A stretch of 62,055 nucleotides of DNA from assembly GCF_020055675.1 (NCBI RefSeq), contig NZ_JAIPUS010000019.1, forward strand, positions 1 through 62,055, in the 5' to 3' direction. Numbering within the stretch: the stretch's first letter is position 1; every line of letters begins with the position of its first letter. The position numbers and the translations under genes were made by a program. Positions 55,659-62,055 of the stretch are shown here, piece by piece. The notes below the pieces were generated by a model. It was not told where the DNA came from. It did no database searches and saw only the letters and a program-made list of their open reading frames with translations. The stretch is from Marivita sp. Its GTDB lineage: Bacteria > Pseudomonadota > Alphaproteobacteria > Rhodobacterales > Rhodobacteraceae.

Positions 55659-56078
55659 CACCGCGGTGTTGCGCAACCAATGCCGCCGGCAACCGTCCGA
55701 TCAACTGCGCCCGCCCATGTCCCGACAGCAAGGTTTGTCTGTCAAATCAAACCGTCAAGGACCGGGATTGGATGTCCTTCACCCCAAGTCGTTATTTTCA
55801 TGGTTTAAACGACTTCCGAAAAGACGGCGCGAATTTTCAAACGCGCCCCTGCGGTTCCGGCCATGCTGAGTATCGCTTACCGGGCTTCTGACGGCCGTTC
55901 CCTCTGCAAGAATGCGGTTCGAGCGTCATGCGCTTTTTGACTTTCACCCCTGAACGCATCCCACAATCAAAGTAAGGCGGGCGCCCGCGAAAGCCGGTCT
56001 CTCAAGCGACTTGACAGATAGTGCAGGTCGCGGATACCTAGCCCTCCACACTTCGAGGCGGCCTCGTCAAGGAAAGTC
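55659..56078. other. Gene-free region with two inverted repeats
   Basis: About 420 bases between gbpR and the XRE-cupin gene without a credible gene. It holds AAGTCGTT-N14-AACGACTT (55786-55793 with 55808-55815) and GGCGCG-N10-CGCGCC (55826-55831 with 55842-55847). The first could be a regulator site and the second a hairpin. Nothing else was recognised. Confidence 0.5.
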
Positions 56079-56687
56079 ATGGACGTTCAGAAAACGCGCG
56101 CGGCGCAGCCGGGGCAAATCACGCATCATGGTCGGAAAATAAAATACGTCCGCCTGCTCAAGGGGTACACCCTGAAGCAGCTTGCAGAGCTTGTGGGCTG
56201 TTCTGAAAGCATGGTTTCGAAGGTCGAGAACAGCAGATTGTCGCCGTCGCTGGCAATGCTGAACCGAATTGCCGTCGCTTTGGACGTGGGCGTGCCCGAT
56301 CTTCTTTTGCAAGAGGGCGATGACCTGACCGATGGCAAGGTGACGGTATTCCCGGCGAACCGCTTCGAAATCAGCGGGACGGATAAGGACGAGGCGCGCG
56401 CCGGAGTGTGGTTCGACCGGATCCTGCCGTTCGGGCGCGAAGGTCTGCTCCAGGTACAGATGCTGCACCTGGAACCGGGCGCGGAGCAACCGCGGTTCCT
56501 GCATCACGAAGGTGAAGAGCTGATCTTTGTTCTGGACGGCGTTCTGGACGTCATCGTCGAGGATCAGACCTATCGTGTAGGACGTGGCGACATGATCTAT
56601 TTCTCTTCCATGCTGGACCACCGATACGGCAATACCGGCGACAGCATGGCCCGGGCCTTCTGGGTCAATACACCCCCGACGATGTAG
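56079..56687 (+). CDS. XRE-family regulator with C-terminal cupin domain
   Basis: 202 residues. The HTH_3 domain (~19-75) reads GRKIKYVRLLKGYTLKQLAE and LVGCSESMVSKVENSRLSPS. A cupin_2 barrel follows at ~115-190 with the metal motif LHHEGEELIFVLDG and a second RYGNTGDS region. Such proteins sense small ligands of amine, amino acid or aromatic catabolism. AAGGAAAG precedes the ATG. It converges on, and overlaps by 23 bases, the molybdenum enzyme gene, which suggests control of that operon. Confidence 0.9.
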   Translation: MDVQKTRAAQPGQITHHGRKIKYVRLLKGYTLKQLAELVGCSESMVSKVENSRLSPSLAMLNRIAVALDVGVPDLLLQEGDDLTDGKVTVFPANRFEISGTDKDEARAGVWFDRILPFGREGLLQVQMLHLEPGAEQPRFLHHEGEELIFVLDGVLDVIVEDQTYRVGRGDMIYFSSMLDHRYGNTGDSMARAFWVNTPPTM

Positions 56688-58965
56688 GCGCCGATCCGGT
56701 CGCGGCATTCAACGCGGACCATACGGCAAAGGGTGTCGCCGGCATCGGCACGGTCTCCACACCGACCGCCCCCAAGGCATCCGCCACCGCGTTCACGACC
56801 GCCGCCAGGGCACCGACGGTCCCTGCCTCGCCTGCCCCCTTGGCGCCCAGCGCGTTGGCCGTTGTGGCCGATGGCCGTGAAACCACGTGCAGGGGCGGCA
56901 GATCCGACGCGCGCGGCATTGCGTAATCCATCAGGCTCCCGCTCAGAAGTTGACCGCTTTGGGTATCATGCACCAGCGCTTCGAGCAGGGCCTGGCCAAT
57001 CCCCTGCACGACGCCGCCGTGAACCTGACCTGTTGCCAGCATCGGGTTTACCAGGGTGCCCAGATCCTCCACCGCCCAGTAGCCGACAAGGTCAATGGCG
57101 CCCGTCTCGGGATCGATCTCGATTTCGGCGACGTGGCATCCATTGGGGAATGTCGGCGCCCGGGCCGCCAGCATCCGCTCTTCCGAAATGGTCAACGCCC
57201 GGCGCCGGACAAGCGACGCGACGTCGATGCGCCGGTCCGTGCCGGCCACCGCAAACGCCCCGCCTGCAAACACCACGTCGGCGGCGGCAACCTCGAGTTC
57301 GTCGGCCGCCTCCAGAATCAGGCGGTCGCGCAACGCCTCGGCACAGGCGGCAATGGCGGTTCCGGCGGCGGCCATGCTGCGGGAACCGAATGTCCCTGTG
57401 CCCTGTGCAACCTCGTCGGTATCTCCCAGCAGGACGCGCACGCCGCGCGGATCGAGCCCAAGTTCATCCGCCAGGATCTGGGCGAACGCGGTGCGGTGCC
57501 CCTGACCTGCGTCGCCGGTTCCCAGGCGCAGCCCGACGTGATCCGGTGACAGGTCGATACAGGCATATTCCGGCGCGGGCGCCGTGGCCGGCCCGCCCGC
57601 AATCTCTATGGCGCAGGCAAGGCCGATGCCGTGCAACCTGCCCCGTGCGCGCGCCCTTGCCGACCGCTCTGCGACCCCCGACCAGTTGGAGATATCGAGC
57701 GCGCAGTCCAGCGTCCCCACAAAATCGCCGCTATCATAGGTGAACCCCAACGGGTTGGTCCATGGCAGGGCGCTTGACGGGATCAGGTTCCGCCGACGCA
57801 GATCGACACGGTCGTACCCGAGCCGCGCGGCCGCGATGTCGATCATGCGTTCGATGACAAACGTTGCCTCCGGCCGGCCGGCACCGCGATAGGCGGCCAT
57901 GGTCTGGGTGTTGAGATGCAGACCTTCGACGCGGGCATGGATCGCGGGCAGCCGATACGGCCCGGCAAGCGACGGCAGGTTGCCCGTGGCCGAATGCAGG
58001 GCCGAGGGCCCGACATAGGCGCCCATCGCCGCGGCGACATCGACCTTCAGCGCAAGCAGCATCCCCTCCCCGTCCAACGCGAGCGTGGCGTCGACGATCT
58101 GTTCCCGTGCGTGCGGGCTGGCCAGCATGGCCTCTGCCCGCGTTTCGACCCAACCGACCGCACGTCCCGTCGCACGGGCCGCGGCAAGCAGGCATAGATG
58201 TTCGGGTGCTGGCGCATTGCGCATCCCGAACGATCCACCGCAACTGTCTGCCACAAGACGCAGCCGCTGGGCGGGGATGCCCATGGCGCTGGCCAGCCCG
58301 TCGCGCAGACGATGCGGGGCCTGCGTTCCCGCGTGCAGGATATAACGGCCTTCGCCGCTGTCCCATCGCGCCAGTGCCGAGCGCGGCTCCATCGTCATGG
58401 CGTGAACCCGGCTGATGGCAAGCCGCTGGCGTATCACATGCGGTGCATCGGCAAGGGTCCGTGCGACCCTCTCTGCGTTCCCGGTTTCGTGCAGAAAGAC
58501 GCGGTTGCCCGGCGCATCCGTCCAGACGCCCGGCGCGTTGCGGGCGCCTTCCAGATCGGCGGCGACGCGGGTCGCTCGCACCTCCAGAGTGACCATTTCG
58601 GCCGCCGCTTCGGCGATGTCACGTGTTTCGGCCACGACAGCCGCCACCGCCTCGCCGACATGGCGCACATGGCCCGATGCGAGTGTCGGAACCGGCGGCA
58701 GATGCGGCGGGTCTGCGGTGGCGGGTGCGCGGGATGCGCCAAGATCGTTGATCCCCGCCGCGATCAGATCGGCGGCGGTGAGGACTGTCAGGACGCCGGG
58801 CACCGCCCGCGCCTGCGACGTGTCGATCCTTTCGATCCGGCCCGCTGCGACATCCGAGCGGACGAAGACCAGCACAGCAGCCCCTGTCATGCGGTCGCCG
58901 GCGAAGACCGCGCCACCCGTGAGCAGCGCGATATCTTCATCCCGCGGAAGCGATTGCCCGATCAT
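56665..58965 (-). CDS. Xanthine dehydrogenase-family molybdenum-binding large subunit
   Basis: 766 residues. The Ald_Xan_dh N-terminal domain begins GQSLPRDEDIALLTGGAVFAG. Mo-cofactor motifs include AYRGAGRPE at about 358-366 and the catalytic Glu (about E713) in GAKGAGEAGTVGA. This is the hydroxylase type, without the Cys-bearing CO dehydrogenase loop. Start at 58965, four bases after the isochorismatase stop. No [2Fe-2S] or FAD subunit gene is in the window, although the operon is visible upstream for 5 kb, so electron-transfer partners must come from elsewhere or differ. Confidence 0.88.
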   Translation of the reverse strand: MIGQSLPRDEDIALLTGGAVFAGDRMTGAAVLVFVRSDVAAGRIERIDTSQARAVPGVLTVLTAADLIAAGINDLGASRAPATADPPHLPPVPTLASGHVRHVGEAVAAVVAETRDIAEAAAEMVTLEVRATRVAADLEGARNAPGVWTDAPGNRVFLHETGNAERVARTLADAPHVIRQRLAISRVHAMTMEPRSALARWDSGEGRYILHAGTQAPHRLRDGLASAMGIPAQRLRLVADSCGGSFGMRNAPAPEHLCLLAAARATGRAVGWVETRAEAMLASPHAREQIVDATLALDGEGMLLALKVDVAAAMGAYVGPSALHSATGNLPSLAGPYRLPAIHARVEGLHLNTQTMAAYRGAGRPEATFVIERMIDIAAARLGYDRVDLRRRNLIPSSALPWTNPLGFTYDSGDFVGTLDCALDISNWSGVAERSARARARGRLHGIGLACAIEIAGGPATAPAPEYACIDLSPDHVGLRLGTGDAGQGHRTAFAQILADELGLDPRGVRVLLGDTDEVAQGTGTFGSRSMAAAGTAIAACAEALRDRLILEAADELEVAAADVVFAGGAFAVAGTDRRIDVASLVRRRALTISEERMLAARAPTFPNGCHVAEIEIDPETGAIDLVGYWAVEDLGTLVNPMLATGQVHGGVVQGIGQALLEALVHDTQSGQLLSGSLMDYAMPRASDLPPLHVVSRPSATTANALGAKGAGEAGTVGALAAVVNAVADALGAVGVETVPMPATPFAVWSALNAATGSAPTSSGVY

Positions 58966-58969
58966 GACA

Positions 58970-59680
58970 TCACTCGGCCGCCTGCCGCGTACTGGCAAGA
59001 TCGCCAAGATGACTGGTCACCTCGTCAATATGCATGACGTCGGCATATTTGTGATGCAGGTCAAAGAGGTTCATCTTGTGGACCAGTTCATGCCGGTCAT
59101 AGGTGCACTCTTCCACAAGGGACACGTGCAGCCCGTTCGAATAGGCATCGACGCAGCTTGCCCGGACACAGCCAGAGGTGCTTTCGCCGCAGACGATCAC
59201 GCTTTGCACGCCAAGCATGTTGAGATGCGAAACCAGAGGGGTGCCTGCAAAGATGCTCGCCCGCTGTTTCTTGATAACGACATCGCCGGGTTCGGGCGCG
59301 AAATCCGGCCAGATCTCGAAATCTTCCGCCGTTTTCGGCGTGCTGTTCCGTCGTGTCGCGCCGACGCCCCGCGGCGCGTTCATGGCGCGGAAATCGGACG
59401 TGCAGTAAAAGATCGGGATGCCGGCGCCGCGGGCGGCGGCAATCAGCTCCTTGGTCGGTTCGATCGCCGCATGGGCATATTTCCCGCAGCTTGACGGGTA
59501 GGTATCCTGAAGCTCCAACGGGGGTTTGGCACCCCCCTTGTAGGCCATGTTGTACAGGTCGATCAGCAGCAGCGCGGGGTTCGGACCAACGAAGGTGTCC
59601 CGGCGGTAGGCGGAATAGATTTCCAGCAGATCGTCGGGGGCGACGTCCTTCCAGGCGTGATCCTCGAAATGGTCGGTCAT
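58970..59680 (-). CDS. Isochorismatase-family amidohydrolase (copy 1)
   Basis: 236 residues. Catalytic triad: Asp in ALLLIDLYNMAY, Lys in VVIKKQRASIF and nucleophile Cys in ESTSGCVRASCVDAYSNG. The family includes N-carbamoylsarcosine, maleamate and peroxyureidoacrylate amidases. AGGAGAAATTACC precedes the ATG at 59680. It sits between a half-permease gene and the Mo subunit, so it probably hydrolyses an amide or carbamoyl group of the same compound. Confidence 0.87.
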   Translation of the reverse strand: MTDHFEDHAWKDVAPDDLLEIYSAYRRDTFVGPNPALLLIDLYNMAYKGGAKPPLELQDTYPSSCGKYAHAAIEPTKELIAAARGAGIPIFYCTSDFRAMNAPRGVGATRRNSTPKTAEDFEIWPDFAPEPGDVVIKKQRASIFAGTPLVSHLNMLGVQSVIVCGESTSGCVRASCVDAYSNGLHVSLVEECTYDRHELVHKMNLFDLHHKYADVMHIDEVTSHLGDLASTRQAAE

Positions 59681-59696
59681 GGTAATTTCTCCTGTG

Positions 59697-60224
59697 TCAG
59701 AAAATTGCAGGGCCGATCTGAAGCCCCTCGGAAACTGCAAGTGCGGCCTGGGCAAACAGACCGGCCAGCACCGGCAGGACGGCGCAGGCGCTCATGCGCA
59801 GGGCGACGAAGGCCCAGCCCATGATTGGCGCCTCGTAGGCGAGGACGCGGTGCATGGCGAAGATCGACCAGCCGGCAAGCAGCGCGACGATCTGCGGCGT
59901 GCCGGCACCGCCCTCGTAGACGATCAGCGCAATCGGAAAGGAGGTCATCGGGCCGCCGGGCATGAATCCACCAAGGCCCGCGGCCAGAACGATCCCGATC
60001 AGCCCCGATTGCGGTCCGATGACCGATGCGATGTGTTCGATGGGCAGAGCCTGGGCCAGAAAGGAGGCAGCCAGCATCGCCAGCGGCAGACGAAGCGCGA
60101 GCGCACGGCCTTGCGAAACCGCAAAGCCTCCGCTGCGGCGCAGGCCGGCTTTGCCCTGCCGACGGTGCACCCAGACGGCAAGCGCGCCCGTAACCAGCCA
60201 GATCCCCGTCACGATCCAGATCAT
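59697..60224 (-). CDS. Half-size permease B (COG0701/DUF318-like)
   Basis: 175 residues with about five hydrophobic helices. It contains FMPGGPMTSFPIALIVYEGG followed by GTPQIVALLAGWSIFAMHRVL and EAPIMG. The same motif order occurs in the upstream half-permease. The family resembles ArsP/YraQ-type permeases but at half their length. The ATG overlaps the upstream stop (ATGA). The pair probably forms a heterodimer. Substrate unknown. Confidence 0.7.
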   Translation of the reverse strand: MIWIVTGIWLVTGALAVWVHRRQGKAGLRRSGGFAVSQGRALALRLPLAMLAASFLAQALPIEHIASVIGPQSGLIGIVLAAGLGGFMPGGPMTSFPIALIVYEGGAGTPQIVALLAGWSIFAMHRVLAYEAPIMGWAFVALRMSACAVLPVLAGLFAQAALAVSEGLQIGPAIF

Positions 60225-60754
60225 TCGCCGGGCACCTCCCGCAGTTTCAACGGCGTCACCTGGACCAGCCATCGCGCGATCAGCCCCGCGATCAGTGGCA
60301 GCGGCAAACAGACGACAAAGCGCAGGACGGTGAAATCGGCCCCCATGAAGGGCAATTCCCAAACGATGAGACGGTTCAGCCCGATCAGCGCCCAAGCCGC
60401 GACATAGGCGATCAGCGCCCCGGCATCGGCCCCGGCGATCCACAAGGCATAGACCAGCGGAAAGGAGGTGAACGGGCCGCCAGGTGTCACCATCCCCGCC
60501 GCCGTCGCCAGCGACAGCCCGACAAGACCGGACTGCGTGCCCAGCAAGCGCGAGACCTTTTCGCGATCCACGAGTTCCTGCACCAGCCCGCCGATCAGAA
60601 GACCGGCGGCGAGTTGCGGCAGGACAAGGATCAGCAGACCGCCCGCGTGTCCCAACGCCGCCCGGACGGCGCCGACCCCGCCGAGCCAGAAACACAACAG
60701 GCCCGACGCCGCGGCGATTGCACCGAAAACGCAATCGGACTTTGACACCTTCAT
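60221..60754 (-). CDS. Half-size permease A (COG0701/DUF318-like)
   Basis: 177 residues with about five helices. TPGGPFTSFPLVYALWIAGA, then ALIAYVAAWALIGLNRLIVW and ELPFMG match half-permease B position for position. It starts MKVSKSDCVFGAIAAASGLL at 60754 with a weak ribosome site. It lies 61 bases after the second isochorismatase gene and is coupled to half B. Confidence 0.7.
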   Translation of the reverse strand: MKVSKSDCVFGAIAAASGLLCFWLGGVGAVRAALGHAGGLLILVLPQLAAGLLIGGLVQELVDREKVSRLLGTQSGLVGLSLATAAGMVTPGGPFTSFPLVYALWIAGADAGALIAYVAAWALIGLNRLIVWELPFMGADFTVLRFVVCLPLPLIAGLIARWLVQVTPLKLREVPGE

Positions 60755-60815
60755 GCTTGCTCGATCCCTTTCCACAGGCGGCCGGGCCAGCTTTGCGCCG
60801 AAGTCTCGCCTCCAC

Positions 60816-61586
60816 TCATTCGGCGGCTTCCAGCGCCATGCCGTCGCCCGAGGGCAGATCGAACATGCCCTCACCAAGACCGCTCAAATAGGCCGTGACC
60901 TCGCCGCTTTTCATGACATTGGCGTATTTCGCATGCATATCGCAAAGATTGATCGCGTGGCTGGCTTGTGCACGGTCAAAGCAACCGTCCTCCACGACGG
61001 TCACCCGGAAATTCAGCGAAAAAGCGTCCAGCACGGTGGCCCGCACGCAGCCTGATGTGGTCGTGCCCGTAACGATCACACTGTCGCAACCCAGGAGTTG
61101 CAGGTAGGAGGCCAGCGGCGTGCCGGCAAAGCCGGAGGGCTTCTGCTTTTGAACCACCAGGTCCTGCGGACCAGGCGCAATCGCGTCCACGATATCGTTG
61201 CCCTCGACCCCATTGCGGGTCATGCCGCCGATGCCCTTTTCTTCCTTGCGGCGGCTGTTCTTCCACGACCAGGATCCGGAATCCCAGTTGTCGGCACGTC
61301 TGTGCCCGGTGGTGTAGATCACCGGCACGCCCTTGCCATGGCAGGCGCCGATAAGGGTCTGCAACACGGGTATCGCTTCCCAGGCATCTTCTCCGCAGGA
61401 GGTGCGCCAGGTCTTGATGCTGTCGAGGATCGGCTTCGGTTCGGTGTCGCAGAAGGCATAATTCACGTCGATCACCAGCAGCGCGGGACGCGCGCCCCAT
61501 TCCGCCAACGCGCCGAATCCCGAGGCGGCGAACACCTGCTTGTCGCGGTCGGTCAGGTAGGCGTCCCAGATACGTGGTTCAGTCAT
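60816..61586 (-). CDS. Isochorismatase-family amidohydrolase (copy 2)
   Basis: 256 residues. Asp in ALLVIDVNYAFCDTE, Lys in LVVQKQKPSGFAG and Cys in TTTSGCVRATVLDAFS form the triad. The closing block HAINLCDMHAKYANV parallels HKMNLFDLHHKYADV in copy 1, so the two are paralogues. I use the ATG at 61586, eight bases after AAGGAG. Copy 2 has a ~30-residue N-terminal extension and an insertion rich in Lys/Arg near 115, which suggests a different substrate or step. Confidence 0.87.
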   Translation of the reverse strand: MTEPRIWDAYLTDRDKQVFAASGFGALAEWGARPALLVIDVNYAFCDTEPKPILDSIKTWRTSCGEDAWEAIPVLQTLIGACHGKGVPVIYTTGHRRADNWDSGSWSWKNSRRKEEKGIGGMTRNGVEGNDIVDAIAPGPQDLVVQKQKPSGFAGTPLASYLQLLGCDSVIVTGTTTSGCVRATVLDAFSLNFRVTVVEDGCFDRAQASHAINLCDMHAKYANVMKSGEVTAYLSGLGEGMFDLPSGDGMALEAAE

Positions 61587-61754: not shown

Positions 61755-62055
61755 TCACGATGAAGCCCCTGGGCGGGTGGCCGGCGGCTGTTTCGTCGGT
61801 CCGGGCGGAGCCTTGCCCGATCCGGTGCCCCATGTGCCCGTCCGCACGAGGTCACGGCTGTGGAACGTAAAGCCGGCAACCGTGGCCAGCAGCAGCGCGC
61901 CGCCTGACAGAAAGGCCGTGCCCAGACCGAACGCCTGCCCGAGACCCCCAAACATCAGCGGCCCCAGGATCTGCGAGAAACGGTTGACCAGCAGCCGCAG
62001 CCCCATCAGCTTGCCGCGCTCGGCTTCGCCTATGGCATCGACCATGATCATGATC
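61755..62055 (-). CDS. MFS transporter, C-terminal part (cut by window edge)
   Basis: The last ~99 residues of a membrane protein whose 5' end lies beyond the window. DAIGEAERGKLMGLRLLVNR is a cytoplasmic loop in MFS style, followed by two helices (ILGPLMFGGLGQAFGLG and FLSGGALLLATVAGF). A Pro/Thr/Lys-rich tail ends the protein. Same strand as the isochorismatase/permease operon, 168 bases upstream of it, so it may import the substrate. The family assignment rests on a short segment. Confidence 0.55.
   Translation of the reverse strand, partial: IMIMVDAIGEAERGKLMGLRLLVNRFSQILGPLMFGGLGQAFGLGTAFLSGGALLLATVAGFTFHSRDLVRTGTWGTGSGKAPPGPTKQPPATRPGASS

Follow-up and report, generated by a model that had tools for sequence, protein, structure and literature searches.

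A probable amide-catabolism operon of Marivita sp. with a molybdenum hydroxylase subunit that may be served by shared partner subunits in trans

The window analysed here is a whole contig of 62,055 nucleotides from Marivita sp. (NZ_JAIPUS010000019.1, contig C2 of genome G000, called the own genome below). Its minus strand carries an operon that ends in the gene for a form II CoxL-like molybdenum hydroxylase large subunit, Mo. Xanthine-oxidase-family molybdenum hydroxylases are generally taken as fixed complexes of a small (S; 2Fe-2S, PF01799), a medium (M; flavin adenine dinucleotide (FAD), PF00941) and a large (L) subunit, and no S or M gene adjoins this Mo. Our best explanation, to which we assign a probability of roughly 0.55, is that the window contains the 3' half of a catabolic operon for an amide-rich or N-heterocyclic compound, with 11 genes in this species and 12 in genome G478, and that its Mo is served in trans by shared S and M subunits. 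The operon is a real, conserved and rare catabolic unit. Sequence comparisons further suggest, at what we consider even odds, that in many Alphaproteobacteria several interchangeable Mo subunits of separate catabolic operons rely in trans on one shared CoxS–CoxM–chaperone module, the window Mo being one such plug-in, in an operon for amide catabolism. The features of the window are as follows.

60,816 to 61,586, minus strand: iso1, isochorismatase-fold amidohydrolase (PF00857; nearest solved chains 4l07/4l08 and 26st)
60,221 to 60,754, minus strand: permA, first half-permease (ArsP_1, PF03773, 42.2 bits, cut-off 32.3)
59,697 to 60,224, minus strand: permB, second half-permease (weak ArsP_1 match, 23.7 bits; ATGA overlap with permA)
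58,970 to 59,680, minus strand: iso2, isochorismatase-fold amidohydrolase (PF00857; nearest solved chains 26st and 3ot4 (N-carbamoylsarcosine amidohydrolase))
56,665 to 58,965, minus strand: Mo, form II CoxL-like molybdenum hydroxylase large subunit (PF01315, PF02738, PF20256)
56,079 to 56,687, plus strand: helix-turn-helix (HTH)-cupin regulator, convergent with the operon (PF01381 and PF07883)
61,755 to 62,055, minus strand: C-terminal part of a major facilitator superfamily (MFS) transporter, truncated at the contig end (PF07690, 26.8 bits for this fragment, cut-off 33.4)
56,002 to 56,014, plus strand: operator-like near-palindrome TCAAGCGACTTGA, 64 nucleotides before the start codon of the HTH-cupin regulator

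Head to tail, from 61,586 to 56,665, the genes are iso1, permA, permB, iso2 and Mo, separated by 61 nucleotides, a 4-nucleotide overlap, 16 nucleotides and 4 nucleotides, respectively. A first-pass annotation, made from the sequence alone, had described a compact operon of an amidase, two half-permeases, a second amidase and a Mo subunit. Sequence reading and Pfam searches agree with this description: iso1 and iso2 are isochorismatase-type hydrolases, the permease is split into two separate short genes, and the window contains no PF01799 or PF00941 match that could be an Fe-S or FAD gene adjoining Mo. The annotation had also called the operon complete on the Mo side. This is correct, as the next gene after the 3' end is convergent, but at the front the operon runs on into another contig, C74. 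The earlier reader saw the 3' half alone, since the window breaks off within the MFS gene, and instead of the two paralogous hydrolases reported there are three, the third (iso3) lying on C74.

The N-terminal part of the MFS protein is encoded at C74 374–1117 and is 60% identical to a rhizobial homologue. It is followed by genes for an ATP-binding cassette (ABC) ATPase, two permeases, an SBP_bac_5 binding protein and iso3, i.e. a dipeptide-type ABC importer and a third hydrolase that is isochorismatase-fold by Pfam. As about 84 MFS residues are found in neither C2 nor C74, and as the first 373 bases of C74 look foreign, we infer the junction between the two contigs. This inference is backed by G478, a genome from another genus of the same family that carries the whole set in the same order on one contig of 192,882 bases. 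The segment C74 1–373 (L070) is AT-rich compared with the GC-rich remainder and by eye encodes part of a YfcC-like membrane protein, such that the left end of C74 looks chimeric.

Identities to the G478 proteins are 81% for iso3, 76% for the binding protein, 82% and 77% for the ABC permeases, 72% for the ATPase, 67% for MFS1, 79% for iso1, 67% for permA, 66% for permB, 75% for iso2 and 54% for Mo. A convergent HTH-cupin regulator (68% identical) follows Mo in the same place, and G478 has a second MFS gene, MFS2, between MFS1 and iso1 that was not seen at that spot in the window. The conserved synteny that the first-pass annotation had proposed to look for is thus present, and because the gene order is kept in another genus at 54–82% protein identity it is more than chance. 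We rejected the idea that the unseen front part of the operon conceals S and M, as neither was found on C74 or in the intact G478 copy. Homologues of iso2 at E-values up to 1e-45 are rare: among 394 genomes from the family 2 have one, and among 385 from the class 9, the own genome being counted in both.

The near-palindrome TCAAGYDACTTGA occurs at window positions 56,002–56,014 and again before iso3 at C74 7513–7525; in G478 the site preceding iso3 has one mismatch and the site preceding the regulator gene has two. A scan of about 862,700 own bases (about 24% of the genome, both strands, small overlaps included) gave two perfect matches, exactly at the regulator and iso3, and four sites with one mismatch, while 2.12 Mb of other genomes' loci gave no perfect match and five with one mismatch. 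As the motif was derived from these very sites, rarity elsewhere is its sole test. The cupin-HTH regulator would act at this site before its own gene and before iso3.

PF01315, PF02738 and PF20256 all match Mo above their cut-offs, and the conserved Glu, which we take to be the catalytic residue, is present, as expected of a xanthine-oxidase-family large subunit. S and M subunits, fused or adjoining as in a holoenzyme of this family, were found neither in the window nor, by tblastn, in the 40 kb read around the G478 operon. The motif AYRGAGR is that of form II CoxL, for which the order coxSLM has been described and the role called unclear (PMC13203968); the window operon does not have the order coxS–coxL–coxM. 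We rejected form I carbon monoxide dehydrogenase because the motif is not AYXCSFR and because, in place of the order coxMSL of that form, no coxM or coxS is found beside Mo. The Mo model (mean predicted local distance difference test (pLDDT) score 87.8) matches the large chain of carbon monoxide dehydrogenase 8uem over its whole length (template modelling score 0.91). Mo shares motif, domains and whole-length fold with the large subunits of coxSLM-type sets; it differs in having no adjoining S or M and in being nine residues shorter in one loop.

Incompleteness of the genomes has been given as the reason for partial operons and solitary coxL genes, a statement made of form I (PMC13240472). We called a Mo gene partnerless when the DNA read showed no S or M gene within 3.5 kb of it on its own strand, and built a tree of 89 Mo subunits (quick IQ-TREE, with Shimodaira–Hasegawa approximate likelihood ratio test (SH-aLRT) support only). 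One clade contains 60 partnerless and 2 partnered rows (SH-aLRT 99), and its sister clade, which includes the coxSLM-type sets, contains 15 large subunits whose genes adjoin those of S and M (SH-aLRT 99); four partnerless and eight partnered rows fall elsewhere. That the window Mo is a one-off case was rejected, as the lack of adjoining partners is clade-wide (60 of the 62 rows sampled). The orphan status proposed in the first-pass annotation stands with respect to adjoining genes; it is the usual state of this clade, and S and M genes are present elsewhere in the own genome.

As a positive control, 20 loci were retrieved through their FAD gene; two of them have no Mo gene, and S and M lay beside all 18 Mo genes of the others. 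The flanks read around the partnerless genes were at least 5 kb on both sides in 40 of 60 cases and at least 2 kb in 51, with less than 2 kb on one side in the remaining 9. Mo pieces shorter than 600 residues (first set) or 650 residues (second set) were left out, for example L196, whose frame is cut at 375 residues, as was L117, which is the same place as L171. Two candidates per genome, the best by similarity to the window Mo, were scored, and Mo counts per genome are lower bounds. The key residues are retained in the partnerless rows: the Glu and the Tyr-Arg-Gly-Ala-Gly core in 60 of 60 and the last Arg in 57 of 60. The sister rows have 345 conserved columns, of which 143 reach a conservation of at least 90% among the partnerless rows. 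The own genome contains a second Mo without adjoining S or M, from the same clade on a long branch (contig C8; L071 8410–10818). The nearest relatives of Mo outside the operon (49–50% identical; L089 10240–15707 and L006 24116–28712) lie between UbiD-/UbiX-type genes with a GntR regulator.

The own genome has five PF01799 and two PF00941 places, distributed over contigs C10, C11, C16, C29 and C30, including a coxSLM set on C16 and a xanthine-dehydrogenase-type locus on C10. Such Mo subunits were found in 42 genomes, 41 of which have PF00941, as do 36 of 36 of those of good quality. Five of the 42 have a single PF00941 match (G065, G196, G122, G351 and G363). In G363 the FAD gene belongs to an ordinary set with a Mo gene. 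In the other four, of which G065 and G196 are from the same genus, the FAD gene lies beside S and maturation-type genes, Mo-free over the 7.5–12 kb read. By Pfam the G065 cluster encodes CoxG, S, M, an AAA ATPase, CoxE, XdhC and a MobA-like protein; by eye the clusters of G196 and G122 are like it, and that of G351 has two XdhC-like genes and a molybdopterin-binding-type gene. PF01799 matches number one in G065, two in G196, one in G122 and 21 in G351, so other S proteins exist in G351. A matching cluster in Azospirillum B510 has a Mo gene between S and M. S–M without L on the one hand, and L without S–M on the other, is the pattern predicted by sharing in trans. G196 also has three Mo-subunit genes in tandem (L118 3516–10675), while its sole PF00941 match is without an adjoining Mo gene.

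Several observations count against sharing. The flanks read around the Mo-free S–M genes were short, about 4–6 kb in G065 and G196 and 2.5–4 kb in G122 and G351. For 6 of the 60 partnerless rows S or M did occur somewhere in the stretch read, five times on the other strand and once on the same strand 7.2 kb away. An earlier FastTree analysis with two sister-kind rows alone placed both inside the partnerless group with support of 94. The nine-residue loop of the sister-set large subunits is absent from all 60 partnerless rows; it was rejected as a diagnostic because the partnered L089_1 and L093_1 are also without it. Genome G089 (87% complete) encodes such Mo subunits and has neither a PF00941 nor a PF01799 match, and within the operon the lowest conservation is that of Mo, at 54% identity to G478 compared with 66–82% for the others. 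Sites with two mismatches to TCAAGYDACTTGA are not rare, two others being present in the 40 kb of G478, and consequently the G478 regulator site is weak. Finally, no TCAAGYDACTTGA-like site with up to one mismatch was found on either strand of C16 (whole), which holds coxSLM, or of C10 1–114,500, which holds a xanthine-dehydrogenase-type S/FAD gene. As the operator is absent at these loci, S and M would not be co-regulated with the operon. The first-pass annotation had regarded S and M genes in the same regulon as a reason to abandon its reading; this partial scan of the own genome gave no sign of such genes.

Some of these results would also be expected if the partnerless Mo subunits were complete enzymes in themselves, with a cytochrome, ferredoxin or quinone as electron acceptor in place of S and M: the loop is lost throughout, S and M lie outside the operator regulon as far as it was scanned, and the G089 genome has such Mo subunits together with no recognizable S or M. 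We consider this explanation unlikely. Among 101 same-strand neighbours no recurrent redox partner was found, the commonest family being seen in 4 of the 101 (best 25 of 155 families); the 101 were scanned out of 170 such genes, with 9 Mo rows without a gene call and genes longer than 650 residues excluded. Moreover, G089 is just 87% complete, and the Mo-free S–M module in four of the five single-FAD genomes would have no evident use. Sharing in trans therefore remains our preferred reading of the redox step.

Among solved chains, iso1 and iso2 come closest to N-carbamoylsarcosine amidohydrolase (26st and 1nba), to the hydrolases 4l07/4l08, the former of which we take to be a maleamate amidase, and to 3ot4, which with 3uao we take to be NicF. 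Both proteins match PF00857 above its cut-off, and their Asp, Lys and Cys regions align with those of the solved relatives; these residues presumably form the catalytic triad of PF00857 hydrolases. The two scored 36.6–50.2 bits against the NCBIfam equivalog models for RutB and the biuret amidohydrolase BiuH, whose cut-offs are 370–378 bits, and neither reached the cut-off of any curated equivalog. As the relatives are amidohydrolases of this kind and the RutB and biuret cut-offs are far off, the hydrolases are likely to cleave amide or carbamoyl bonds. As to the substrate, a cyclic or multiple amide is a guess, an N-heterocycle or ureide a reasonable one, and the operon probably breaks down an amide-rich or N-heterocyclic compound as a nitrogen and carbon source. 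The window differs from known enzymes of the N-carbamoylsarcosine or maleamate amidohydrolase type in having three paralogues in one operon, the likeness being one of sequence alone.

It is possible, though rather doubtful, that the operon is a variant of a known ring degradation (nicotinate nic, uracil rut, creatinine or lumichrome type) with its ring-opening enzymes encoded elsewhere. The closeness of the hydrolases to N-carbamoylsarcosine amidohydrolase and related chains is consistent with this, as is a 58% identical iso1 homologue of Sinorhizobium meliloti that by eye adjoins genes for a luciferase-like (LLM-type) monooxygenase and alpha/beta hydrolases. Lumichrome catabolism likewise involves three hydrolases and a xanthine-oxidase-like enzyme, and in Nocardioides simplex several hydrolases are encoded in one cluster with the latter (PMC12746152). 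In N. simplex the Fe-S, FAD and Mo domains are all part of LumJ, a single chain of 140 kDa, whereas the window Mo is separate, and the lumichrome cluster includes Rieske and extradiol dioxygenases not seen in the window operon (PMC12746152). No ring-opening oxygenase appears in the gene lists of C74/C2 or G478, in which most genes were named by Pfam, homology or eye, and the RutB and BiuH scores also argue against a known-ring variant. No known pathway with this exact set of genes, which the first-pass annotation would have taken as refuting its reading, turned up in the available parts of the literature searched.

The hydrolases are tied to such Mo subunits beyond this operon, as indicated by two results. 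A Mo-type gene lies within 7 kb of an iso2-type gene in 7 of 11 loci elsewhere, a raw count that represents about three syntenic groups (11 of 17 non-own places were fetched with flanks), and in G089 an iso1-type gene lies 92 bases from a partnerless Mo gene, in convergent orientation. Four of the seven Mo rows (L172, L173, L175 and L179) fall outside the window Mo clade. Three of the seven loci also have a nitrile hydratase alpha gene (by Pfam in L173, by eye in L175 and L179); there an iso2-type hydrolase, a polysaccharide-deacetylase-type protein, a Mo subunit and nitrile hydratase alpha form a nitrile/amide pathway of its own. In G089, a thiamine-pyrophosphate enzyme, a partnerless Mo and an iso1-type hydrolase are encoded side by side (L101 6608–11876).

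Plasmids of Allorhizobium pseudoryzae and Neorhizobium petrolearium carry iso3–ABC–MFS–iso1–iso2 in the same order, with iso1 77–78% identical. Because permA, permB and Mo are not there at the corresponding place, these three genes look like an addition to the operon. A LysR gene precedes iso3 in both plasmids; none was evident before iso3 in G478. Together with the low conservation of Mo, the rhizobial clusters are what would be expected if Mo were a decaying or non-redox passenger and the working pathway consisted of the importer and three hydrolases. We find this very improbable, as the open frame is kept in two genera, the Glu is invariant and the AYRGAGR-type motif nearly so in the partnerless rows, and Mo-type genes recur near iso2-type genes.

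permA exceeds the cut-off for the predicted ArsP_1 permeases and permB falls below it (its Pfam entry was taken from 60,209 on). It is the first half of the ArsP_1 profile that each of the two matches, and unlike those permeases the window has two short overlapping genes. An NTGA overlap was present in 18 of 18 permA–permB pairs examined, including the window pair. The permA model is all-helical (mean pLDDT 91.5); its best fold match in the PDB (9x2m_F, E 0.73) was not significant, and a comparison of its sequence with solved chains gave no match at E-values up to 1. A related-locus search with permA returned two loci. The own genome has a second permA–permB pair on contig C11, by eye inside a phosphonate (phn)-like cluster (L072 9919–10901).

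A pathway consistent with these data can be proposed. The SBP_bac_5-type ABC system would import the substrate and Mo, judging from its family and intact active-site motifs, would hydroxylate a carbon next to nitrogen. The three hydrolases, given their family and triad, would then cleave amide or carbamoyl bonds in turn, and permA and permB may together make a two-chain permease that carries the substrate or a product. Like the other members of its clade, Mo would join in trans with S and M subunits that serve as a shared electron-transfer module, here most likely CoxS and CoxM of the C16 coxSLM set.

Sharing of S and M among form II large subunits was not described in the available parts of the literature searched, which included PMC13203968, PMC13240472, PMC11771112 and PMC12746152 (subscription papers and preprints lay outside its scope). 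The partnerless Mo clade, together with the Mo-free S/M clusters, is the part that merits specialist attention. The operon would name a new nitrogen-compound pathway common to two genera. If one S/M module does serve many large subunits, the role of form II cox genes would become testable as that of an electron-transfer hub, and many unassigned catabolic operons would gain a redox step. It would also provide a combinatorial way to new hydroxylases, and these enzymes would be more modular than thought.

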